From Protoeuglena noctilucae (Eukaryota > Chlorophyta > Pedinophyceae > Marsupiomonadales > Marsupiomonadaceae), in assembly GCA_958009085.1 (NCBI GenBank), contig OY253669.1, positions 124,001 to 188,000 on the forward strand: a stretch of DNA of 64,000 nt, read 5' to 3'. How positions within the stretch are numbered: position 1 is the first letter of the stretch; each line of letters begins with the position of its first letter. A model generated the notes under the pieces. The model searched no databases, was not told the DNA's origin, and worked only from the letters and a program-made list of their open reading frames with translations. The position numbers were made by a program, and so were the translations under genes. Below are positions 3,778 through 60,900 of this stretch, piece after piece.

Positions 3778-6700
3778 ATGCGATCACGAACGTTTTCGAG
3801 GCCCCAAAGCCCCTGTCGGGGGAGCAGGCGAGGAGCGCTGCGTCGCCAGGTTATCCATTCCGCATTCATGCGCCGGCCGGCAGCCAGGTCGAGGGATGGG
3901 AATCAAGTTATTCACACGACCCGATTGCGACCGTCGGCGTGTCCCGCGAATCACCCCCGCGCGCGTGCGCCATCGTCGCAGGGTCTGCCGCCCTCCCGGC
4001 CCCCGGAGGACGGCAACCAGCTGCGAATCGCGTGGAGGGGGCTCCTGCGCGCGCTGGCCAATCTCCCGCTGGCGATCGCGGAGCTCGCCGCCCTCGCGGC
4101 CCTCTCCGCCGTGGGCACGGTCATTGAGCAGAACCGGTCACCCGATTACTACAGGTGCGGGGCGCCGTGCGGAGTATATATTGACAATGTACTCATCAGT
4201 TGCATTCGTCAACATCAAACGCGTGTATTCGCGCTCGGTCCCGCTCGCCCGATCCGCGGCGGAGAGAGCATGGGAGAGCGTACGCATGCCAAGTTCGCAC
4301 GTGTCCCCACCTCCACCCTCTCTCCCGCAGCACCTTCTATCCCAGCGACGGTCCCAGCAAGGTTCTCGGTTTCGTCACGTCGGATTTGATCCTTTTCCTC
4401 GGCGTCGACCACATCTACACCACACCCTACTTCCTGGGCCTGATGGCGCTGCTGGGGGCCTCCCTCGCCGCGTGCACCTTCACCAGGTGTGTGGGAGAGG
4501 CTGTGTAATAGTAGTTTTACTATCTGTGCTACAGTGACAGTATTACTACCTGTGCGATGATATCACCACCTCCACATTTGCACACATCCCCCAGCCACAC
4601 CTCATCATGCGCTGTGACACCCACATCCCCCATCTACTTCCCCAACCACACCTCACCATCCGCAGGCAATGGCCGACTGTGCGACTCTCGAGCCGCTGGT
4701 CGTTCAAATCGACCAAGACCGCCATCGCGTCGCTACCATTGGCCGAGTCCCTGCCTCGCTCCCGGCTGAGTGACTTGGCCCAGCAACTCTCCTTGAGGCG
4801 ATTCCAGGTCTTTGTGAAGGACGGGAAGCTCTACGCATTCAAAGGCATCGTGAGTGGGCATATGTGGAGAGGCCTGGATGATGTGTGGGCATGTTGGGCA
4901 TGCATGCGGGTGGTGGCAGTTGTGGTGGTGCATGAGCGTAACATATGCGGGAACGGTGGTGCTGGTGATGGTTGCTGTTACTATCGCTTGTAATACAACG
5001 ATTGCCACGCTCGCCCATGGCGCCCACGCTCACCCGTAACCCCACCCCCTCCAGGTTGGCCGCGTGGCCCCCATGGTGGTGCACGCCTCGATGCTCCTCT
5101 CCATGACGGGATTCGTGCAGGGGGCGCTGATGGGGTGGGAGGGGTCCGTGATGTGCCCGGTGGGGCAGGAGTTCGTGGCCGTGCAGGCAAGGGGTGGGGA
5201 GGGAGATATTAGTGGAAATAGGAGTGGAATGGGAGAGATGAGCTAGTAGGGATGGGCAGGCGAGGGGTGGAGGGGAGGAGCGAGGGTGGTAGGAGTGAGC
5301 AGGCTTTATGCATTCCGCTGCCCCTCTCGCTTGCACCCAGCCACTCCCACTCCAACACCCCACCCCTCACTTCACACACACCTCCCCCCGAAGCCCCCGT
5401 CCCCCGTCTCCATGTTCGCCCCTCTCCCCCCGCTGTTCCACACATCACCCCCGCAGCCCCTCTCCCTTGCACCCATGCTTGCCAGCCACTCTCACCCCAC
5501 TCCCCTACCCACCACACCTCCCCCCGCAGCCCCTCTCCCCCGTCTCGATGTTCGCCCCCCTCCCCGCCGGCTCCGACGCCGTCGTCCGCGTCAACGATTT
5601 CCGAATCGACCATCGATCCGATGGTCAGGTCGGTCAGTACTTCTCAGACGTATCGGTGCTGACGAGGGACGGGGAGGAGGTGACGCGCAAGACGGTGTCA
5701 GTAAACGACCCGCTCAGGTTCGGGGACATCACGGGTGAGCATGGGTGGGGTGTGTGGGGGTGTGGGTGTGGGTGTGGGTGTGGGTTGTGGGTGTGGGTGT
5801 GGGTGTGGGTAGGGGTGTGGGTGTGGGTGTGGGTGTGGGTGTGGGTGTGGGTGTGGGTGTGGGTGTGGGTGTGGGTGTGGGTGTGGGTGTGGGTAGCAGT
5901 GTGGGTGTGGGAGTGGGTGAGTGGGTGTGTAAATGGGAGGCAACTGTTGTTCACGCGTTCTTGTTGAACCTAGCTAAGACATTGCATCAACATCTACCTG
6001 ATCAACCATCAGGTACAACCATCAGGTCCCCCCCCCGCCCCCCCCCCCCCCAGCGTACCAGACGGACTGGGGCATCGCGGGCGTGCAGCTGCGGATCACG
6101 GGCGATGGCTTCGACGGTGCCACGCCCCTGGCCCTCCCCATGGCATCGCTGGAGGGGTCGGGGGTGCTGCAGGGGCGCGCGTGGGGGACCTTCCTGCCAG
6201 GTGAGAGAGGGGTGTTAGAGATGGGTTGGGTGTTGGGGTAATAGCGCTGCAGGGGAGGGCGTGGGGGACGTTCCTGCCGGGTGCGGGTGGGATGGAGGGT
6301 GGGTGTTGTGGTGTGTGGGGGATGGAAGGGTGGGGGCGTCATGGTGCACTGGTGCGTTATTGGTGCGCTGGGGGAGAGTCGGGCAGCGGAATTTGCCAGA
6401 AGCCCCTCGACATCTCTCAGCATGTGTGCTGATGGTTGACGGTACATTTGCTTTGCTCCGTGATCCCTTGCACCACCCATTTCCAATAGCAAGACGTTCC
6501 CCTGCCACCCGCAGTGGGCGCATCGACTGGCGACGCCAAGCCCCGGGGGGTGTCGCTGATTGCGCGTGACCTCCAATCGATCGCAATCTATGACGACAAG
6601 GGGGCGTTCGTGGGGGTGCGGAGGCCGGGGTCTGGCAAGCCCATTGAGGTGAGCGGGGTGGTGGTGGCTTAGTGGGTGGTGTTGATGGAGTGGGGTGGCA

Positions 6701-7203
6701 AGCCCATCGAGGTGCGTTAAGGTTGTTGATTGAGTTGGGGTTGTTGATTGAGTTGGGGTTGTTCATTGAGTGGGTGGTGTGCCAGGAAGCGCTGAGTGCT
6801 GATGCGTCGCACTGGGTGGGTCAGGCAAGCTTATTGAGGTGAATGGGTGGTGTTGATTGTGTGGGTGGGTGTTTAATGAGTGGTAGTTTGCCAGTGGGGT
6901 GGCGATGAGTACCCCATGCCCCACCCCCGTCAGGTCTCTGGCGTTTCGCTGGTGGTGGAGTCGATGACGGGCAGCACCGGCCTTCAGATGAAGACGGACC
7001 CGGGCATCCCCGCCGTGTACACCGGCTTCGGATTCCTCATCCTATCGTCTTTCATGTCATTCCTCCCTTTCATGCAAGTGTATGCCGTGGCAGATGGGGC
7101 CACGGTTCACGTGGGTGGCAAGACTAACAGAGCTGATGAGGACTTGCGGAGGGAGCTTGACGAGGTGTTTGATGCGGTGCCGGAGGTAACTGAGACGGCG
7201 TGA
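3778..7203 (+). CDS. CCS1: CCS1 (ResB-like) cytochrome c synthesis protein of the plastid
   Basis: Eight exons, 3778..4154, 4331..4486, 4666..4849, 5055..5186, 5530..5734, 6054..6200, 6515..6648, 6934..7203. The product is the thylakoid-membrane ResB/CCS1 subunit of System II, which with CcsA attaches haem to apocytochromes c6 and f. Diagnostic stretches are [19 protein letters not shown] plus IEQN (first membrane segment), [16 protein letters not shown] (second), [23 protein letters not shown] and [14 protein letters not shown] (lumenal domain), and the last membrane segment [20 protein letters not shown]. Family homology begins about residue 75; the Arg/Ser/Ala-rich leader from 3778 is plausible transit peptide, but an upstream exon joining at 3982 is possible. 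Intron 4 (5187..5529) starts CAG|GCAAGG and has no in-phase GT donor. Introns 4, 6 and 7 contain copies of neighbouring exon edges. Confidence 0.88.
5250..5480 (+). repeat. Decayed copies of exon edges inside CCS1 intron 4
   Basis: At about 5257 the motif GGGCAGGCGAGGGGTGG repeats the real donor region at 5181 (GTGCAGGCAAGGGG). At 5382..5430 a stretch repeats the acceptor and the first ~35 nt of exon 5 (real copy 5511..5566), with acceptor AG preserved as CCCCGAAG. A further half-copy with CCCCGCAGCCCCTCTCC lies near 5451. All are skipped if the conserved protein is made. Confidence 0.65.
5755..5900 (+). repeat. (GGGTGT)n minisatellite in CCS1 intron 5
   Basis: About two dozen near-perfect hexamers of GGGTGT, with two interruptions, lie directly after the donor of the intron 5735..6053. 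The same intron ends in an almost uninterrupted C run at 6028..6050 before its CAG acceptor, so it is G-rich at one end and C-rich at the other. Confidence 0.9.
6247..6285 (+). repeat. Copy of exon 6 end and donor inside CCS1 intron 6
   Basis: Repeats the true exon end at 6168..6200 (CTGCAGGGGCGCG through CTTCCTGCCAG|GTGAG) with a handful of substitutions; the copy keeps a GT after CTGCCGG. Confidence 0.75.
6694..6840 (+). repeat. Two copies of exon 7 end and donor inside CCS1 intron 7
   Basis: The true exon end GGCAAGCCCATTGAG|GTGAG (6634..6648) is followed by a copy at 6694..6711 (GGCAAGCCCATCGAG|GTGCG) and a more diverged one at 6823..6838 (GGCAAGCTTATTGAG|GTGAA). Only the first is conserved as coding and in frame with exon 8. 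Confidence 0.8.
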
Positions 7204-32056: not shown

Positions 32057-35000
32057 GACGGCGTGGGACCCGACGACGGGGAGGCGGGCGGGGAGAAGCT
32101 CTCCAAGAGCCAGATGAAGAAGCTGGCGAAGAAGGCGGAGAAGGCGGCGAAGCGCGGGGGCGACGCCGGGCCCGTGCAGCGCGGGCAGGGGGCCGCCAAG
32201 GCACGCCGCGCTGCGCCAGGCTCGCTGCGCCCTCCGCGTCTGCCGTGTCCGCCCTGAGCCCGCGCAAACCCTATATTCGCTTTTCCTCCGCAGCTTATGA
32301 CGGAGGCGGACCCGGACGACCCTCTCCGCGACATGTACGGGGACCTTCCCCGCATCCAGTCGCAGCCGCAGGCGAGCCGCCCGCCGGGCCGCCGCTGCGC
32401 CCGCGTCGCATGAAAATACAGCAGCAGAAGTATGTTTGAGTATCCTTGGCCCGACTCGGGCGCGGCTCTCCGCGCTCCGCAGACGGGCCGCGTGTGGACA
32501 GACGTCATCGCGCTGGGTTCCGCGATGGAGGGCCAGCGCGTGCTCCTGCGTGGCCGCGTGCACACGACGCGGTCGAAGGGCAAGTCGGCGTTCCTGGTGC
32601 TGCGCCAGGGCACGGCCACGGTGCAGCTGGTGCTGTTTGTCGACGAGGAGAAGGTGTCGAAGCAAATGGTCAAGTACGCGGCGGGCATCCCCAGGGAGAG
32701 CATCGTGGAGGTCGGGGGCGACGTCGTCCGCCCGCAGGCGGCGATCGAGTCGTGCACCCAGGCGAGGGATATGCGTGATGGGGGGGCGGTGTCTGGGGGT
32801 GTGCTGGTGGGGCGGGATGCAGTGCTGGGGAACAGCTCTTGATGCTGGCAGAGGTGGCAATGTCTTGGATCACTCCTTTGTTGCCACTCCCGCCATCCCT
32901 AACACCCACGCCACCCCAGCCACCCCTGCCGCGTGCCGCACCACCACCCTTGTTCACCCCTTAACAACACCCCCCTCGGCTGTTGCAGAGTGACGTGGAG
33001 GTGCACGTTCGGCTGATCAAGGCCGTGTCTCGCGCCGATGCTCTGCCATTCGAGGTCACGGATGCTGCACGGGGCGAGAAGGAGATTGCAGAGGCGGAGG
33101 CAAAGGGGGAGACAATGGTGCGCGTGGGGCAGGCGCTGAGGCTGGACAGGAGGTGAGGGGTTGAGGGTTGTTATAGGTGGTGAAGGGGTGTGATGGTGCA
33201 TGTGTGGGGCAGACGCTGAGGCTGGACAGGAGGTGAGGGGGGGATGGCGAGGGCTGAGAGGAGAGTCGCAATCATTGTCACTTGCACACAATCCCGTTCC
33301 CTGGCGACTCACACTCCCCGCCAACGCTTCTCTCATCTCCCTCCCCACCCCTCCCCTCTGACCCGCTCCCCACCCCTCCCCTCCTTTCACCCTCCCTTCT
33401 CCCCTCACCCCCAACCCCCACTTCTCACCCCCCCTCACCCCCCAGGTACCTCGACCTCCGCACCCCCGCCAACCAGGCCATCTTCCGCGTCCAGTCCGCC
33501 GTTTGCGCGCTGTTCCGCGAGGCCCTGTCCCAGCGCGGGTTCATCGAGATCCACTCCCCCAAGCTCATCGCGGGGACGTCTGAGGGGGGCGCCGAGGTCT
33601 TCCGGGTCGAGTACATGGGCCGCCCTGGGTGCCTGGCGCAGTCGCCGCAGCTGTACAAGCAGATGGCGATCTGCGCGGACCTGGACCGGGTGTTCGAGAT
33701 TGGCCCGGTGTTCCGTGCGGAGAAATCCGAGACACACCGACACCTGTGCGAGTTCACGGGGCTCGACATGGAGATGGCCATCAAGGAGCACTACGACGAG
33801 GTGAGGGGGAGGGGAATGATAGAAAGAGAGATAATAACTGAGGAGCAATGCGACGAGGTGAGGGGTGGGAAGTGAGATGGGGAATGATAGTGGGGAAGAT
33901 GATAACCAAGGAGCAATGCGACGAGGTGAGGGGATTGGTCAAGTGACTATCAACGTGCACCATTACCTCTTACTTCAACTCCTGCATGCCCTCTTCCTGC
34001 ACACACACCACTCTCTCTCACCCCTCTCTCTCTCCCCAACACCCATCACCCTCTCTCTCCTCTCATCCCCCCAGGTGCTCGACGTCCTGGACGCCCTCTT
34101 CCTGCACACACACTGTCCCTATATATAGACTCCTACATATACCTCTCTACCCTCTCCCTTACCCTCTAGATCCTGGACGTGCTGGATGCCCTCTTCCTGC
34201 ACGTACACATCTCTCACCACTCTCTCTCTCTCTCTCTCTATTCCCACCCCTCATCACTTGTTACTTAACTCCCCTCTTTCCCTCACCCCCCAGGTGCTCG
34301 ACGTGCTCGACGCCCTCTTCCTGCACATGTTCCGCGGCCTCAACGAGCGCCACGCCCACGAGCTGGCCACCATCGGGGCGCAGTACCCGTTCGAACCGCT
34401 CAAGTTCCTCGACAAGAGCCCCCGCATCGAGTTCGCGGAGGGGGTGCGCATGCTGAGGGAGGCGGGGTACGAGATGGACGACATGCAGGTGTGCATGGTG
34501 GGGAGTGACTGATGTGGGATGGGATATAGAAATAGAAAGAGTAGGGTAACATGCGAGATGGACGACATGCAGGTGGGTGGAGTAAATATGGTATGGGTAG
34601 CATAGGAGGTACACGACATGCAGGTGGATGCATGGTGGGGCGAGATTTCAACATGGGGAAGGAGCAATGTGTAACTCATTACAATATTACCCCACATTCC
34701 TCTTGACAACCATTGCAGGACCTGAACACGGAAAGGAGCGATGTATCACCACACCCCATCCCCTTCACCCGTCACAGGACCTGAACACGGAGAAGGAGCG
34801 TGCCCTGGGCCGCCTGGTGCGCGACAAGTACGGCACAGACTTCTACATCCTCCACCGGTTCCCCTCCTGCATCCGACCCTTCTACACCATGCCCGCGCAC
34901 GACGACCCCAGGCGAGACCAGACACGCGCCTGTGCTTGGTAGAAGAGACGGAGGTGTATGTATTGTTGACTCATCTATGCTCGGCGTGGCATCGACACCG

Positions 35001-42770: not shown

Positions 42771-45700
42771 ATGAGCGCGGTTGGGGCATGCAGCGCGCGC
42801 CCGGCTCCCTCGTGGGCGCGGGGCAGGCGCGCCGGCCCGAGGGGGGTGGTTGTGCGGTCTGCCGAGAACGGGGTGTCCACGCAGACGGGGAGCGAGCTGC
42901 AGCAGCTGAAGCTCGAAATCGAGCGTCTCAAGAACGAGAACTTGGCGCTGAAGATGCGCCTGGGCGTAGGTCGGGCCGCGCGGGGGCCTGTCGGGGAGGG
43001 GAGCCGGGCTGTGCGGCCAGCGAAGACCCCGTGTCGTCCGGGGCGCGCGCCGCCCCACACGTAACCGGCCGCGCTCGGCTGGGTTGCGACGCATCGCAGG
43101 AGCCCGCCCCGCCCCCGCAGAGGCAGGAGTGGTGAAGACCGACGCCCCGGCGAGCCTGCCGCCGGAAGCGGAGGATGTGCAGCCCAAACACAGCGACGCC
43201 ATGACGGGTGAGGACCGCGGCGCGCGCGCGAGATGCAATGCTGCGATTCGCGGTCCCGAGGCTCGTCCGGACTCGCGACCGGCGCCCGGGGGCCGGGCTG
43301 GATCATGCTTCCCGCTATCGTGCGCGCCCCGGGCTCGAGCCCCCGCGGCGCGCTCGGAGGGCTGCGCCGCTCCTTCGCATATATCCTCCTCTCTCCCCGC
43401 GTGCCCCCGGCGCCGCCCCTAGCCCCGCGACGGTTGCTCCAGCTCATGGCGACCCCGTCTCTCGCGCAGAGGAGGAAATCGCGGAGCTGTTGCAGGACGG
43501 CATCCGCTGGCCCGAGCGAGGCGAGGCCAATTTCTGGGAGAGGCCTCCGCGCACGTCCCCGCCGCCGTTCGAGCTGTACGACACGGGCGGGGGCGCCGAC
43601 GTGGTGCATCCCCGGGACAGGATCGCCCTCCACATCGTCCACATCACGGGTGAGCCATCCGCTGCAATTTATGCGACGCTCTTTCGTCATGCGTTCTCCG
43701 CTAGTGGGCGTCGCGCGCGCAGGGCGACCATACGTGCGTCACGGGACCATGCGAGCAGAGTGATGCCCACGGTCGTGTGACCATTCCCGTGCTCGCCCCT
43801 GTTCCCGCAGCTGAGATGGCCCCGGTCGCCAAGGTCGGGGGCCTGGGTGACGTGGTGACGGGCCTGAGCAAGGCCGTCATGGACCGGGGTCACAACGTGG
43901 AGGTCATCCTTCCCTTTTACGAATCCCTAGAGACGCACCGCGGCACGGCCGTCATGACGCAGCCGACGCTCGAGATGAGCTTCCAGTGCCCCAAGGGGCG
44001 CGTCTGGGACGGCGTCATGCAGCTGGGGGAGCTGCAGACCGAGGTCTACCGGTGCGAGATCGACGGCGTGCCCGTGGCTCTCATCCGCCCGGACTGGGGG
44101 CAGAGCAACCTGTTCAAGGTGCGCGGGTGGCGAGCAGGGGTTTCTAGTCTCGCTCTCGGCTGCTTCGATAGTTGCTTTGACTGCTGACCGTACGCTCCTC
44201 CTGACGCTCACCGTGGCTGACGTGGACAATAATGTGTGGAATGTGTGTCCCCCGCAGGGCGGCAAGATCTATGGTGGCTCTTACAACGAGCCCGAGGCGT
44301 ACCTGTACTTCTGCCGCGCCGCGCTCGAGTACCTGCTGCGCAGCGGGCGCAACCCGAACGTGCTGCACATCCACGAGTGGCAAGCGAGCGCCGCAGGTGC
44401 GGACACAAGCCTGTTGTGACTTCGTAACTGTTCTTCTCTTTGCTGTCTTCATCCCTCAAGTCGGCTGAGACGGAAGGGCATGCGAGCGGTGTGCCCCGCT
44501 GGGTGCTTCGACTGGTCTGAGTTGCTCTGCCTGTTCTGCCTGTGTCCCTCGCCCTCGCAGCCCTGTTGTACTGGATATAGCTCTGCTGTACTGGATAGCT
44601 CTGCCTACTATGCCCATGTCGTTCGCCCTCGCAGCGCTGCTTTACTGGGACTTCTTCCACGGCGTGGGCCTCACGCTGTGCCGGGTCGTGCTGACCATCC
44701 ACAACGTGGGCAACTCGGGGGAGATCAGCCAGCAGGAGTTCAGCGTCACGGGCGTGCCGGGAAACTTGTTTGCCACCATCGACAAGGCACTGGACGAGCG
44801 CACGGTGAGCGGGAATGCGAGAGTGGAGTCGGGGCAGATGATGAACATGCGCAGAGCCATGGGGGCTTTCTTACTTGGTTGATTCGACACTCCAGGGAAT
44901 GCCGATACCGGTCACCGCGATAGTGACGGGTGGCAACGAAGGCATTGGCCACTCTGACTCCGACCTTCTCGCCCCCGCCGCTGCAGATCGGTCACAACCC
45001 CGAGCGCCTCAACCTCCTCAAGGGCGGCATCATTTACTCCAACGCAGTCACGACCGTGTCGCCCACCTACAAGGTCGAGACATTGGAGCGCGGCGCGGCG
45101 GGGTGGCTCGCGTGAGTGTCTCGCGCCGCTCCGTGATTCTACCATATCCAGCGTGTTGTGTGTTCCTTGCTTTCCGTCCCTCGCCTTTCCTCGGCTCCAT
45201 CCCAGCTCTCTCTTTGACACGAAGAGCGTCGCCGCGGTTCCCACCCACCCAACACCCTTTCTGGCCCCGCAGCACCACGCTGAACCGCCCTGACGTCAGG
45301 CCCAAGTATTCTGGCATCCTCAACGGCATCGACATCGAGGCGTGGAACCCCACGGCGGACCCGACGATCCCCGCGCCCTTCTCCCCCGAAGTCCTCACCA
45401 CCAAGGCCCTATGCAAAAAGTACCTGCAGAGGGGCCTTGGGCTCGCGGAGAACCCCAACGCGCCGCTCTTCGTCTGCATCACCCGGCTGGTGAGCCGGCA
45501 GTCGGCATAGCTGGGGCGGTCGGGGTGGTGTGGTGTCCCAGCATGAGTGTGCTGTGCTCTCCATGACTTACTCAACCAATTGTGGCGTGCTTTGGCGTGT
45601 TGGGAGCAATCTCACCACTGGATGTGTACAACACCGCCCGCAGGTGCCCCAGAAGGGCATCCACATGATCGCGCGCGCCATCCGCAAGGCCAACGAGAGC

Positions 45701-49450: not shown

Positions 49451-50068
49451 TCAGAAGTCGACGGGCGCGCTGCCGACGGGCCTTGCGCCTTCGCTGGGCG
49501 CGTGCAGCTGCTGCAGCGTCCGCGCGTACGTCCCGGTCAGTCCCAGCGCCGCCGCGGCGACCTTGAACCGCGACCGGATGGAGGGCAGGAGCTCCGACAG
49601 GCTGGCGTCGGTGGGGTCGGTCAGCGGGAAGCGCCGGAGCAGGTCCTCGAGCCCGTCGATCGCCTGGCACGCGCGCTCGCTGTGCAGAGCGCGAGAATGC
49701 GATGCTTGTGGCGAGCGAGGTCCCGGGAGGGGCATCCGCTGCGCGCCCGCGACGGTTTGGTGGAGAAAGTCACCTGAAGGCGCCAGCGTCCACGGATTGG
49801 AGACGTCTCCAGCTCGCGAGGCACCCAGCGTAAAACCCGACCTCCTGTCCTAACTCAAAGCCGCGATATATGCCGCTCTCCCGACCTGCAGTTGCCTAAG
49901 CGAGAGGGTCCGCGCCATCCCTCGCCGCTCTCCCGCCCCCCCGCTCGCCGCGTCCCCGCCGTCACCCTGCCGCAGACCCTCCAGCCTGCCCTGCGCCACG
50001 CCCTCCGAGTGGCCCGCGCGCACGGCCTCCTCGTCGGCGCGGACGACCGCCTCGAAGGGGTCGCCCAT
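49451..50068 (-). CDS. LTO1: LTO1 / ORAOV1-like adaptor with Yae1 domain
   Basis: Three exons, complement(49451..49679, 49774..49885, 49966..50068), 147 residues. LTO1 with Yae1 recruits ABCE1 (Rli1) to the cytosolic Fe-S assembly machinery. The repeated Gly signature of the Yae1 domain runs across both junctions: EEAVRAGHSEGVAQGRLEGL, RQGRESGIYRGFELGQEVGF and YAGCLASWRRL. The C-terminal helix LEDLLRRFPLTDPTDASLSE followed by IRSRFKVAAAALG matches the family. Introns are GT-AG, with a weak first donor (GTGACG). Exon 1 and all sequence upstream of it lie within an 860-bp direct repeat whose second copy, at 52.3-53.1 kb, precedes PRODH. This copy is the intact gene. Confidence 0.85.
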
Positions 50069-50738
50069 GCAAGGCCGCGCCTGCCCCGCCGAGGGGCCCT
50101 AGCAAGTGCGCGGTCCCCGGGCCATGCGCACGCGGGAGTCAAGGTCGGCGCTGGCCCCTTCTGCCGGACAAAGCCGTCCCTCGCACATCCGGACCCCGTC
50201 TGCCAAATGTAGTTGCAGCACAAAGCGCTACCGTCGTCGCGCGCCCGCCGACAGCGAGTGCTCCCACTCCGTCGACATGAGAATCAAAGCGGGGACCCGA
50301 TCATGCCCCGTTCCGCTCCACCTGCGGGATTCCCTAGCATCGGCGGGACGCAGCGCGTAAACGCGCCCGGTTTCGGACACCGCACCGTGCGACTAGGATG
50401 ATCGACGGGCAACCTCGTCCGCAGTTCGCGCACAGGGGAGGGCAGCTTTGTGCTGCCACCGTGCCCTCTGGAGCCCAAGCGTCCCGGCCCTCCCCGCGCC
50501 CACCGAAACGTGCGCGCGTCCATTCCACACGCGTGGTGCCCGCATAAGCCAGGTGAGCCGCCGTCCTTGCCGCTGGCGGCCCTCGCGGGGCGCCGGAGGG
50601 GCGGGCCGCGCCTTGCCGGGGGGCCAGGTCAGTCAGGCTCCTGGCGCCAACCCCGCGCCTCTGCACGCCCAAGACCCCACTTTCCGCGGCGCCCTCCCTC
50701 GTACGACGCTAGCGGACCGCCTCAGCGCATGATCCGGA
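49877..50738. repeat. Direct repeat copy A (LTO1 exon 1 and upstream promoter)
   Basis: Matches 52267..53128 at a constant offset of 2390 bp. Three mismatches fall in the first ~28 nt and at least one near the right end (GATCCGGAGCC against GATCCAGAGCC), whereas about 825 nt between them look identical by direct reading. Left limit falls at the LTO1 exon 2 acceptor. Confidence 0.9.
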
Positions 50739-52264
50739 GCCCACAGTCGCGATGTGTGCCGCATGCAGCTTGCCACAGGATGCAAGGAGGTCAGGCGCGC
50801 AGGTAGGGCACCTGAAAACCCTACACGACGCAAGGCCCAGAGGGAGACACAGAGGAGATGGGTGGAGACACAGAGGTCAGAGATAGCCGCCGAGCTAGCA
50901 AAGTGGGAGAGCAGGGCAAGCCCACCCCAGCCCACCAACCCCAGCTCCCCTGGCACACAGCGTGGGGTGGCTGCGGTGGAGGTTTTGGTGGAGAGGAAGA
51001 GAAGAGGTCCTGGGTGACAGAGATGGCTTCAAAGAAAGCACCATGGGCAGGGAGATGGACGTGGAGGTGTTGGGGCCACGAGGTAGCAGCAGCAACGGCG
51101 AGGCGGTGGTGGCAAGCAAGCGCAGACGAGATCCTATGGCTGGTGTAGGAGACGATGCGGCCAGTACCCAAGCCGAAGCGTCAGGAGGGTCGAGGAGCAG
51201 CACAGGGGTGCACCTGGGAGCGGGTGACCCGTTCGCCAGTGACGGCGCGGGACGATGATGGCCTGCAGAATCTCATACCAAAAGAGACGCCAAGCGGGGG
51301 ACCTGAGGAAGTCGGAGCTAGCACGAGTAGCGCCGAAGCGGAGGAGGAGCGCGGTGGGGGTGCCACGGTCAGGGCAGAGGCCGGGTGGCCCCACGGGAGG
51401 CCGGCGCCGTGAGGCTGGGCAAGGCATCTGTTGAGGTGCTGCCAGGAAAGAGGGGGCAGGGAGTCGAAGACGGAGTGCCACACGACCTGGGCCGTGCTGC
51501 AGGACACCGCAAGGTCCTGGAGGAGGTGGGGGCGTGTAGTGCAAACAATTGGTGACCGTTAGCCAGGCCGTGGAGGTCAGGTTAGCATGAAGGATGCCAG
51601 GGTAGCTGCCGCAGAGGGTGCCAATTGGGGTGTGCTGTCATCTCGCAGACGCTAGGCAAGGCTGGTCTGTTGAGTGCTGGCGACATTGAACGCCCTGCGA
51701 GGGGCCAGACACGCAGTGGGTGAAGTCGTTAGGGAAGACAGACGGAACCGTGGGCCCACGCTTGTCAACCCAAGCGTTGGCGGGGAAGCCAGGGCGGCCA
51801 GGGCCGTTGAGGCGGAGGTGGGTGTTGAGGGAAGCACAGAAAGTTGAGACGGATCTCTTTGGTCACATAGGTGTGGTTGAAGGTGTGGGAGACCGTGGTG
51901 GCGTCCACCACCTCAGAGAAAATGCGGTTTTACAGGGGGCTGGAGTGGGCACAGGGGCGATGAGCGATGCGACCAGTGCGAAGGCCCGATGACGGGGGCT
52001 GAGCGTCGGGACGACAGCGGCCCAGATTCCTGAGGCCGGGGCGTTGAGGAGCTGCACCCGATGCGACGGGCCAGTGCAGCAACTGTGCACGTGGTTGGCG
52101 GGGCAGGATAGGGTAGGGGGGGTCGTGGTTGGAGTTGAAAACGAGTGCGGGCCTGCAGCAGCGGGCCTGGGGTCAGGTGGGCCCACATATCACGGGAGCT
52201 TGATAGCGGGGAACATGCAGGTGGCGGTATAGAGGTCACGGATCAGTGGGTGGGTGCGGGCGGC
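50739..52264. other. 1.5-kb unassigned segment between the direct repeats
   Basis: Composition differs from the flanks: the plus strand is G/A-rich with few long codon-biased frames. The longest open frames are on the minus strand (for example 51134..51544 and 51181..51507) and have low-complexity Pro/Ser/Leu translation. I see no terminal inverted repeats, no poly(A) tail, no tRNA or rRNA. It may be a degraded mobile element or filler captured during the duplication; I cannot assign it to a family. Confidence 0.45.
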
Positions 52265-52458
52265 GCTCTCTCGACCTGCGGTTGCCTAAGTGAGAGGGTC
52301 CGCGCCATCCCTCGCCGCTCTCCCGCCCCCCCGCTCGCCGCGTCCCCGCCGTCACCCTGCCGCAGACCCTCCAGCCTGCCCTGCGCCACGCCCTCCGAGT
52401 GGCCCGCGCGCACGGCCTCCTCGTCGGCGCGGACGACCGCCTCGAAGGGGTCGCCCAT
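52250..52458 (-). pseudogene. LTO1 first-exon fragment in repeat copy B
   Basis: The ATG and all of exon 1 of LTO1 (52356..52458) are repeated intact with the donor, but homology stops at the exon 2 acceptor (here CGACCTGCGG on the plus strand, CCGCAG on the minus) and the next sequence is unrelated. Exons 2 and 3 are absent, so only a truncated peptide could be made. It is transcriptionally divergent from PRODH with the original promoter region between them. Confidence 0.82.
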
Positions 52459-53128
52459 GCAAGGCCGCGCCTGCCCCGCCGAGGGGCCCTAGCAAGTGCG
52501 CGGTCCCCGGGCCATGCGCACGCGGGAGTCAAGGTCGGCGCTGGCCCCTTCTGCCGGACAAAGCCGTCCCTCGCACATCCGGACCCCGTCTGCCAAATGT
52601 AGTTGCAGCACAAAGCGCTACCGTCGTCGCGCGCCCGCCGACAGCGAGTGCTCCCACTCCGTCGACATGAGAATCAAAGCGGGGACCCGATCATGCCCCG
52701 TTCCGCTCCACCTGCGGGATTCCCTAGCATCGGCGGGACGCAGCGCGTAAACGCGCCCGGTTTCGGACACCGCACCGTGCGACTAGGATGATCGACGGGC
52801 AACCTCGTCCGCAGTTCGCGCACAGGGGAGGGCAGCTTTGTGCTGCCACCGTGCCCTCTGGAGCCCAAGCGTCCCGGCCCTCCCCGCGCCCACCGAAACG
52901 TGCGCGCGTCCATTCCACACGCGTGGTGCCCGCATAAGCCAGGTGAGCCGCCGTCCTTGCCGCTGGCGGCCCTCGCGGGGCGCCGGAGGGGCGGGCCGCG
53001 CCTTGCCGGGGGGCCAGGTCAGTCAGGCTCCTGGCGCCAACCCCGCGCCTCTGCACGCCCAAGACCCCACTTTCCGCGGCGCCCTCCCTCGTACGACGCT
53101 AGCGGACCGCCTCAGCGCATGATCCAGA
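52267..53128. repeat. Direct repeat copy B (LTO1 exon 1 and LTO1-PRODH promoter)
   Basis: Second copy of 49877..50738. It ends about 70 bp before the PRODH start codon, so the repeat contains essentially the whole intergenic region that originally separated divergent LTO1 and PRODH. Confidence 0.9.
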
Positions 53129-53196
53129 GCCCGTAGCCGCCCGTTGCGCCCCGCTCGACCCCGACTCAAACGCGAAGCCCCGGCGCGCGCCGCAGA

Positions 53197-57939: not shown

Positions 57940-60900
57940 GTGGCCGTGCCGGGCATTTCGAGCGCGATTTACCGGAGCGACGCCAACCGTCACGTCAGAA
58001 ACAGCGTCAAGGGCGAGCGCCTGTTTGATGACATCAGGCAGCTCTTTCGGGCCGAGATAGGTGCGGGTGACCCGTGTGCGGGCGAGCTGCTCCGACCAGT
58101 TTGCACCACCCGGCCCCATGGATGGGGGGCAGCAGCTCGCGGCTCCAATGACTCCTGTGAGCCCGCAGGACTCTCTCGCGGAGAGGTGAGGCCTCGCATC
58201 CGCCCGGCCCTTGTGGTTTGTCCGCCTTGTCCGCCGCACACACGCGATGGCGTCCTCCACCCCGCCATCGCGGCGTAGTACACGAGTGATGGACGAGGCG
58301 GCTGCCTTGCACGAAGGCGCGCGACGATCGGCCGTCCCCGGCAGCTGCGTGCGTGCTTGGGGAGCATGTCGACCAAAAGCTCCACGCTTTGCGCAGGGCC
58401 ATGGACGGTCTGCAGGAGGCATTCGATTGGCAGGCGAACGGCAAGTCCGGCACGGCGAGCGCCGTCGCCAGGCTGTCTTTGCAGGACATTGCGTCGATGG
58501 TGAGGGCAAAGATTGTGGCCCCCGCCGCCGCCCGCGTTCCGTTTCCTCCGCTGTCCCGACCGCCCTCCTCTTCTTTGCTGTGGAAACGCATCGCCGGCCG
58601 CCTTCCGGCTCCGCAGGACGTCGGGGCGCTCGGCCAGAACTCCCGCCTGGCTGCGACTGCCAACGGCGCCCCGGGCGCGGCCCGCAGCGCCGGCTCGCCC
58701 CCGCAGTCCCAGCGACACGTCCCGCGCGGGTCGGTCCACGCGCACACCGCGCCACCCGGCTCGGTCCATCCCCCGGACACGCCGGGGCTGACACCAGTGC
58801 ATCCGGTGCACATGCGCTCTCTCCAGGCGGACACGCTCGACCCCGACGCCTCCTTCGCTTCCAACGCGGGCCGCAAAGAGCTCTCCCTCGCGCGCGAGCG
58901 CACCACCCTCGAGATCAACAGCGAGAACGTGCTGCGCGGGGAGATGACGCTGCAGCGCTTGCAGGCGAGTTGCCGTGCGGCTCCGTCGGGCGCCGCGCCA
59001 GGCGCTCGCCGGTGGGCCCTCGCGCGCGACCCGCCCGCGTGTCGCTTCTCGCGCAGATGGGGGAGCTGCGCGCGCAGATCGTCGAGCTGGACCGTCAGGT
59101 CCGCAGCCTGAAAGGGGAGCTGACGGTCAGCGAGCGCATGCGTTTCGCGCTCATGTGCGCGAGCCAGGGCCGCATGATGGAGGCCCGGCAGGCCATGGCG
59201 CCGCTGGACCGCGAGCTGCGTCGGCTCCAAAAGGCGCGCCAGGAATCGGAAGCGGCGCTGGAGGAGCTGCGGGAGTCGTCGGAGCGGAGCAAAGCGGAGC
59301 GCGAGCGGGCCGTGGGGGACCTGCAGCGGGTGCTGGCCACGCGGGAGGAGGACGTGGCGTCGGTCGCCCGGGAGTACGAGGGTCGCGTCGCGCAGCTGCA
59401 GGGAGAGGTGGCGAGGCTGCAGGGCGAGCTGGCGCACCGGGTGAGGCGGCGACGACGACGATGCCCCGCTGTCGTTCCATTCTTCGCTCTCATTCGCCTT
59501 GGGGACCCACTTCACCGCTCGCTTGATGCCGCGAATGGCAGCCGTGGGTGCAGACCCTCCCGGCGCTCCCTTCCCCGGCATTTTGTTCATATTTCTGCTG
59601 CTGCGCGCAGGACAACGAGATCCGCGGCATCGCCGACCGCACGGCCCTCGAGGCCACGCGGCAGGCCATGGAGGAGCTGCAGCGGGAGCGCGAGGAGCGG
59701 CATCGCGAGTCCAAGGACCTGGCGGCCAAGGTGAGGGATGGGAGACTGGAGAGAGGCAGTGAGAGTGAGTGCCAGTACCTGGCGGCTAAGGTGAGCCACG
59801 GGCAGACTGGAGAGAGACCATGGGCGTAAGATAGGTAGAATGCCTGCCCGCCGCGATGATGGTAGCGTTTGGGCTCAAACCCACACCCCACCCCTGCCTG
59901 GCCCCTCCCATGCGAACCGCCCAGCCCTGCGTCGTCGGCCCCAGTACCAAGCCCAGATGCGCGAGCAGCGTGCGCACAGCGACAGGCTGCTGGAGGAGGC
60001 CCGGAAAGAGATGGAGGAGGTGCGGAGGGCCAAGGACGAGGAGGTGGCGTCCCTGAGGGAGGCCCACGCGAGGGCGGCGCGGGAGGCGGCAGCCAAGCAC
60101 GAGAGGGAGATGGAGGAAGAGGCCGAGAAGGCCGCCATGATACGGTGCGTTGAGAGAGATGGGATGGGTGTTGGTAGCACGCGGATCTGTGGCGCTGGCC
60201 GGGTTTTTCGTGGCACTGGAAGCGGCGCTGGCTGCCTCGATTCGCGTTCGCTTCCCTGCTTCTCACTTGCGTCTGTCACTTGTGTCTTTCTTTCGTCATA
60301 CACTTATGTCTCACTTGCTTCTCACTTGCATCTTTGTGCTCCGTTCCACCCAGGCGCGAGGCGGCCCAGCGGTACGAGGCCCTGGTGAAGGAGGAGCGGG
60401 AGCGGTGGCAGGCCCGCGCCGAGCGCGCCGAGGCGGAGATCGACCGCGTGCGGCGCGAGGAGGCGCAGCGGTCGGAGGAGGACGCGCGGGCGGTGCGGGA
60501 GGCGGCGACCAGGGAGAAGGAACTGGCACTGGCGCGGGTGAGGGGTGGGAGCGGTGGGGTTTGGTGGGGTGGGGATTGATACGGAGCGGTCAAGTGTGTG
60601 AGGGGCTGGAGATGGAGAGCAGGGGTGCAGGGGTGCAGGGCTTGGGAGGTCTTGAGATAGTGGAGAGAGGGAAACAGGAGGTGATGCATTGCTTGTACGT
60701 GTGCCACCCCACAGGTGCGTGAGGAGGCGGAGGATGCGATCGACGCCGAGCGCCGTGCGGCGGAGGAGCTGCGCCGGGAGCACGAACGTGAGGTGCGGCA
60801 GCTGAAGGAGCGGTACGAGGGCGCGCTGCGAGACATGGAGGCAGCGCTGAGACGGCGGGCGGAGGAGGTGGTGGGGTCGCTGGAGGGGCAGCACCGGGGC

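Follow-up and report, generated by a model that had tools for sequence, protein, structure and literature searches.

Exon-edge copies inside introns of a Protoeuglena noctilucae locus suggest intron growth by tandem duplication across exon-intron borders

Introduction

How does an existing spliceosomal intron become longer? Intron growth is less studied than intron birth, and the question is raised by a locus of the chlorophyte Protoeuglena noctilucae, where three consecutive introns of an AspRS gene hold copies of the edges of their own neighbouring exons together with the splice sites. An earlier note on this DNA had read these copies as the trace of intron growth by repeated small tandem duplications. 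Here we follow up this reading over the whole stretch that was analysed (64,000 nucleotides of contig OY253669.1, positions 124,001 to 188,000; hereafter the window).

The window is eukaryotic DNA with a GC content of 66.8%. Gene models were obtained with a small gene finder of our own construction, trained on the window and run with strict settings, and give 107 introns of at most 700 nt. The genes include an EF-1alpha-family GTPase with an EFL-like look, a nuclear ResB/CCS1-like gene and a starch synthase, three genes whose presence would suit a chlorophyte green alga, as well as AspRS and a coiled-coil gene; the exact-junction homology check covers AspRS alone, and the other models rest on the gene finder. 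A degenerate pattern derived from AspRS exon 6 has no related sequences in the viral and the bacterial/archaeal collections.

Results

The protein predicted from the outermost sites of AspRS introns 4–6 aligns without gaps to human cytosolic AspRS over all three junctions (E = 2.5e-164), in agreement with the earlier claim that the outermost copy is the one joined. Intron 4 (33153–33445, 293 nt; this and all features below lie on the plus strand) would thus use the donor after 33152 and the acceptor before 33446, a junction over which the alignment is gap-free. It contains one donor copy, D2 (33176–33247, donor after 33232), whose source is 33096–33167. This copy holds 57 nt of exon edge, 89% identical to the exon, and about 15 nt of intron, and 72 of the 80 nt of the unit are repeated.

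Intron 5 (33801–34293, 493 nt) carries, counting the used sites D1 and A1, three donor-type and four acceptor-type edges in the order D-D-D-A-A-A-A. The donor copies are D2 (33829–33857, donor after 33857, 69% identical to the exon) and D3 (33897–33925, donor after 33925, 79%). They are followed by the acceptor copies A4 (33970–34003, 71%, decayed with loss of the AG), A3 (34075–34108, 94%, AG intact, with homology extending upstream into the intron) and A2 (34170–34203, 82%, with TAG).

Intron 6 (34489–34777, 289 nt) has three edges of each type in the order D-D-D-A-A-A. The final 19 exon nucleotides of D2 (34541–34572) are identical to those of D1, and D3 (34597–34623) is followed by intron sequence resembling that behind the used donor (34468–34508 against 34603–34645). 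The acceptor copy A3 (34644–34669) is decayed and is equalled by 0–1 of 1000 shuffles, while A2 (34719–34743) has 24 of 24 aligned bases identical, with small indels. All the copies listed in the earlier note are thereby recovered, with donor copies ending at 33232, 33857, 33925, 34572 and 34623 and acceptor copies starting at 34075, 34170 and 34719; the decayed acceptor copies at about 33970–34003 and about 34644–34669 are additional.

To measure how specific such copies are, we searched each junction (36 exonic and 24 intronic nucleotides) against the remainder of the same intron, with the junctions of other introns as controls. A score of at least 22 was reached by 10 of 192 junctions, in eight introns of four genes, and by 0 of 17,892 controls; the next own-junction score, 21.5, is closely matched by that junction's own controls. 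In AspRS the own-edge scores are 25–44, against a maximum of 17.5 for the edges of about 93 other introns each. When exon bases alone were used, 8 of 205 edges scored at least 13, compared with 0 of 2247 and 0 of 372 controls. This test gives the same picture, and similarity of splice consensus is therefore not the cause. The exon-edge copies are specific to their own junction, far beyond chance.

The ten high-scoring junctions comprise the donor of AspRS intron 4, both ends of introns 5 and 6, and one junction in each of five introns in three further genes of the window. In the ResB/CCS1-like gene, intron 5187–5529 has an acceptor-spanning copy (5315–5432, source 5451–5569, period 136 nt), intron 6201–6514 a donor-spanning copy (6246–6320, source 6166–6238) and intron 6649–6933 two donor copies (6666–6714 and 6818–6880, together spanning 6666–6880). 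The starch synthase intron 44397–44634 has an acceptor-spanning copy (44512–44574, source 44586–44648), and intron 59731–59944 of the coiled-coil gene a donor-spanning one (59740–59830, source 59684–59769).

This recurrence across four genes bears on the concern that the copies are an assembly or sequencing artefact. The assembly is a draft, as a gap of 200 N at another place in the window shows, but substitutions and indels separate most copies from the exon, mostly at 60–94% identity, and we regard an artefact as scarcely credible.

Further observations were made in the ResB/CCS1-like gene. Intron 5187–5529 shows possible decayed GC-donor copies (GCAG|GCGAGGGG) at 5230–5300, which lie below significance. 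Intron 5735–6053 consists mostly of a (GTGGGT)n array (5745–5929) that begins directly behind the donor and may represent donor-side growth carried to an extreme. A weak acceptor-side duplication at 4589–4663 lies just upstream of the probable true acceptor (about 4663) of an exon overlooked by the gene finder, and the intron concerned is a possible ninth copy intron.

What kind of event produced the copies? They are head-to-tail, collinear and in a single orientation, and within the intron donor copies are confined to the 5' part and acceptor copies to the 3' part. Homology that takes in the exon and intron parts together is complete in intron 59731–59944, where a 60-nt unit repeats both GAGTCCAAGGACCTGGCGGCCAAG from the exon and AGACTGGAGAGAG from the intron, and between D2 and D3 of AspRS intron 5. 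In intron 5187–5529 a 118-nt alignment covers most of the 136-nt unit, and homology is no more than partial between D1 and D2 of intron 6 and in intron 44397–44634. To judge from the sequences, local tandem duplication across exon-intron borders would fit these features best.

Templated insertion during break repair would be different, mending breaks within the intron with nearby stretches, exon edge included, rather than duplicating an adjacent block. The exon share of the copies, ranging from 16 to 57 nt, speaks for it, as does D2 of intron 6, whose exon edge is fresh while the intron sequence behind its donor differs from that of D1. This is the least tidy case for tandem duplication, which needs a later deletion or conversion to account for it. 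Templated insertion is nevertheless unlikely in our judgement, given the collinear, same-orientation copies and the several introns in which exon and intron parts were copied jointly across the complete unit.

Known routes of intron origin were also compared with the arrays, and four were rejected. Intron birth by tandem duplication over AGGT (the Rogers model) expects sequence from the downstream exon to follow the donor and sequence from the upstream exon to precede the acceptor. Both are absent, and the model is rejected on this ground: swapped-edge scores are just 3–9 in all eight copy introns (the own-junction scores of 23–44 come from longer queries and are not on the same scale). Tandem multiplication of whole introns expects alternating donor and acceptor copies, in place of the donors first and acceptors last that were found. 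Nested insertion of a block made of an intron plus its edges expects equal numbers of both types, whereas the ratios are 2:1 in intron 4 and 3:4 in intron 5, with one-sided sets elsewhere. For introners or transposon-derived introns, none of the 17,892 cross matches reached 22, and self-BLAST of the window gave no repeat common to the copy introns.

The copies within an array are related to one another. In intron 5 the similar pairs are A4 with A2, spaced about 200 nt apart, and A3 with the used A1, about 220 nt apart, and therefore a two-unit block was seemingly duplicated. The donor copies D2 and D3 of this intron both read AATGCG at a place where the exon reads ACTACG, and A2–A4 share CA-rich downstream bases absent from the exon. 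In intron 6, D2 and D3 have common upstream bases, and A2 and A3 common downstream bases (GATGTATCAC/AATGTGTAAC), neither with a counterpart in the exon; copy kinship in intron 6649–6933 does not resolve. Since the extra copies mostly share features missing from the exon, a founding duplication followed by expansion within the intron is suggested, and one founding border duplication per junction would fit better than repeated independent strikes on the junction. Between exon and copy, 51 of 342 G/C sites but 15 of 177 A/T sites have changed. This AT bias would be expected if each copy derives from the exon and drifts.

The earlier note had described inner copies as progressively decayed. Intron 6 does show such a gradient, but intron 5 does not: there a farther copy can be better preserved than a nearer one (A3 94% against the nearer A2 82%; D3 79% against D2 69%), so decay is not always graded. 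Nor does intron length track copy number among the three AspRS introns, as had been proposed, with 293 nt for one extra copy in intron 4 and 289 nt for four in intron 6. Growth by serial border duplication is consequently retained in part. The duplications are tandem, affect both intron ends and occur in three other genes too; on the other hand, copy number and decay are ungraded, and repeated strikes fit worse than a founding duplication with later expansion.

Within the window, the copy introns have a median length of 291 nt versus 158 nt in 38 well-supported others (p = 1.5e-4), a difference that alone is weak evidence because longer introns offer more room for copies. Once the duplicated units are subtracted, the median of the copy introns is 159 nt, against the 158 nt of other introns. 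Without these units intron 5 would be reduced to about 43 nt and intron 6 to about 21 nt; about 20 nt lie between the two innermost edges of intron 6. So little remains after subtraction that introns 5 and 6 consist almost wholly of duplicated border units. The copy introns start unusually G-rich and end unusually C-rich.

The arrays also bear on splice-site choice. The coding continuity described above suggests that the outer sites are used at AspRS introns 4–6. Over 12 nt, D1 and D2 of intron 4 have identical donor scores, as do D1, D2 and D3 of intron 5, and local donor strength therefore cannot account for the choice. A choice governed by closeness to the exon would resemble exon definition. 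Survivorship also matters, since loss would be the usual fate of a duplication in which the inner copy became the used one.

Use of the inner AspRS sites is predicted to bring a premature stop in seven of eight cases, and use of D2 in intron 5 to add 19 amino acids in frame. Alternative splicing as the purpose of the copies was rejected on these stops and on the frame, which is not kept. Selection could instead keep inner sites as alternative or poison sites that tune expression; stops are what poison splicing would give, and a full donor score is retained by D2 of intron 4 and by D2 and D3 of intron 5. We consider this very unlikely, because the copies decay, with the AG lost in A4 of intron 5 and A3 of intron 6, the frame is not respected, and copies occur in unrelated genes.

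To ask whether borders are duplication hot spots, we scanned the window for local duplications, setting aside simple-sequence arrays (1.1–1.8 kb and 5.7–5.9 kb), coding repeats and copies of copies. At a score of at least 22, no complex non-coding duplication off the borders was found in the whole window; weaker off-border duplications number three (2388, 4589 and 51411). Simulated tandem duplications in introns and intergenic DNA were detected in 98–99% of cases at 8% divergence per copy and in 86–87% at 13%. With borders making up 0.26 of the target, the location of eight of eight introns gives p = 2e-5, or 0.005 when counted by genes. The latter rises to 0.03 when double detectability is allowed for in addition, and to 0.04 when the three weak duplications are also scored as misses. 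The copy introns cluster by gene (p = 0.003), and all are in plus-strand genes. In this small sample, border duplications outnumber other non-coding ones; border targeting of duplication is suggested, not shown.

Discussion

Taken from the sequence, the account that we consider quite probable is that small tandem duplications straddling a border added length to spliceosomal introns already in place, with the outer sites kept, and that inner expansion and neutral decay followed. A tandem duplication with a unit of about 57–136 nt would straddle the exon-intron border, each event copying the splice site together with 16–57 nt of the exon on one side and tens of nucleotides of intron on the other. 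With the outermost donor and acceptor still in use, the duplicate would land inside the intron, leaving the protein unchanged and the intron longer. Later duplications among the repeats would multiply the inner copies, including a step of about 210 nt (two units) at the acceptor of intron 5, and the inner copies would then decay neutrally. The sequence itself shows the copies, their order, the unit-long homology in several cases and the coding continuity at the outer sites. What we infer is the DNA event, for which slippage, template switch and end joining are candidates, and a preference of the spliceosome for the splice sites nearest their exons.

The closest described case is the RdRp gene of potato, in which a tandem duplication over an intron-exon border, carrying the 3' splice site, pyrimidine tract and exon edge, gave a new intron (PMC4974935). 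Both systems share the border-crossing tandem duplication with splice site and exon edge. In potato the duplicated acceptor is used, yielding the new intron and an extra exon (PMC4974935), whereas here the inner copies are apparently silent, the old intron grows, donors as well as acceptors are affected and there are several copies. The AGGT model of intron birth by tandem genomic duplication (reviewed in PMC3443670; Drosophila cases in PMC2891723) likewise involves local duplication of splice-like sites, but it places swapped exon sequence inside the intron; here swapped edges are absent and the units hold real intron edges.

Multi-copy 24-nt tandem repeats associated with introns in fission yeast (PMC3629103) resemble our arrays as serial repeats with splice-like sites within an intron. 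Those repeats are exonic coding units across which the intron arose (PMC3629103), while in the window pre-existing borders were copied. In Arabidopsis TOUCH3, to go by its citation in PMC4974935, a whole intron was multiplied with flanking exon, a tandem duplication that also takes in intron and exon sequence; an event of that type would be expected to give donor-acceptor-donor-acceptor order, in contrast to the donors followed by acceptors seen here. Our search of the open-access literature turned up no account of introns growing through border duplication at both of their ends. The copies are best labelled a variant of tandem-duplication intron evolution, acting as growth of existing introns.

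Selection would scarcely see a border duplication that leaves the outer site in use, and such events could thus lengthen introns stepwise while sowing decoy or alternative splice sites. Their footprint can be traced and dated, since selection preserves one of the copies, the exon. Identical duplicated donors offer a direct test of exon definition versus intron definition in a short-intron lineage. A bolder proposal is that, in this lineage, borders act as hot spots of duplication, that border duplication with array expansion is a main route of intron lengthening, and that the arrays show splice choice to follow position over strength; we find this combination possible but somewhat doubtful.

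Other features of the window

GC-AG introns seem frequent, as in AspRS intron 7 at 34912 (CAG|GCGAGA) and the ResB/CCS1-like intron at 5187 (CAG|GCAAGG). A direct repeat of 869 bp (49874–50742 and 52264–53132, 99.5% identity, spacing 2.39 kb) has no obvious LTR ends and may be a recent segmental duplication, a pair of element ends or an assembly duplicate. Finally, a long degenerate array of CCCTCT type at 1098–1790 adjoins a minus-strand gene whose translated pieces, judged by eye, are SRRM1-like (PWI domain).
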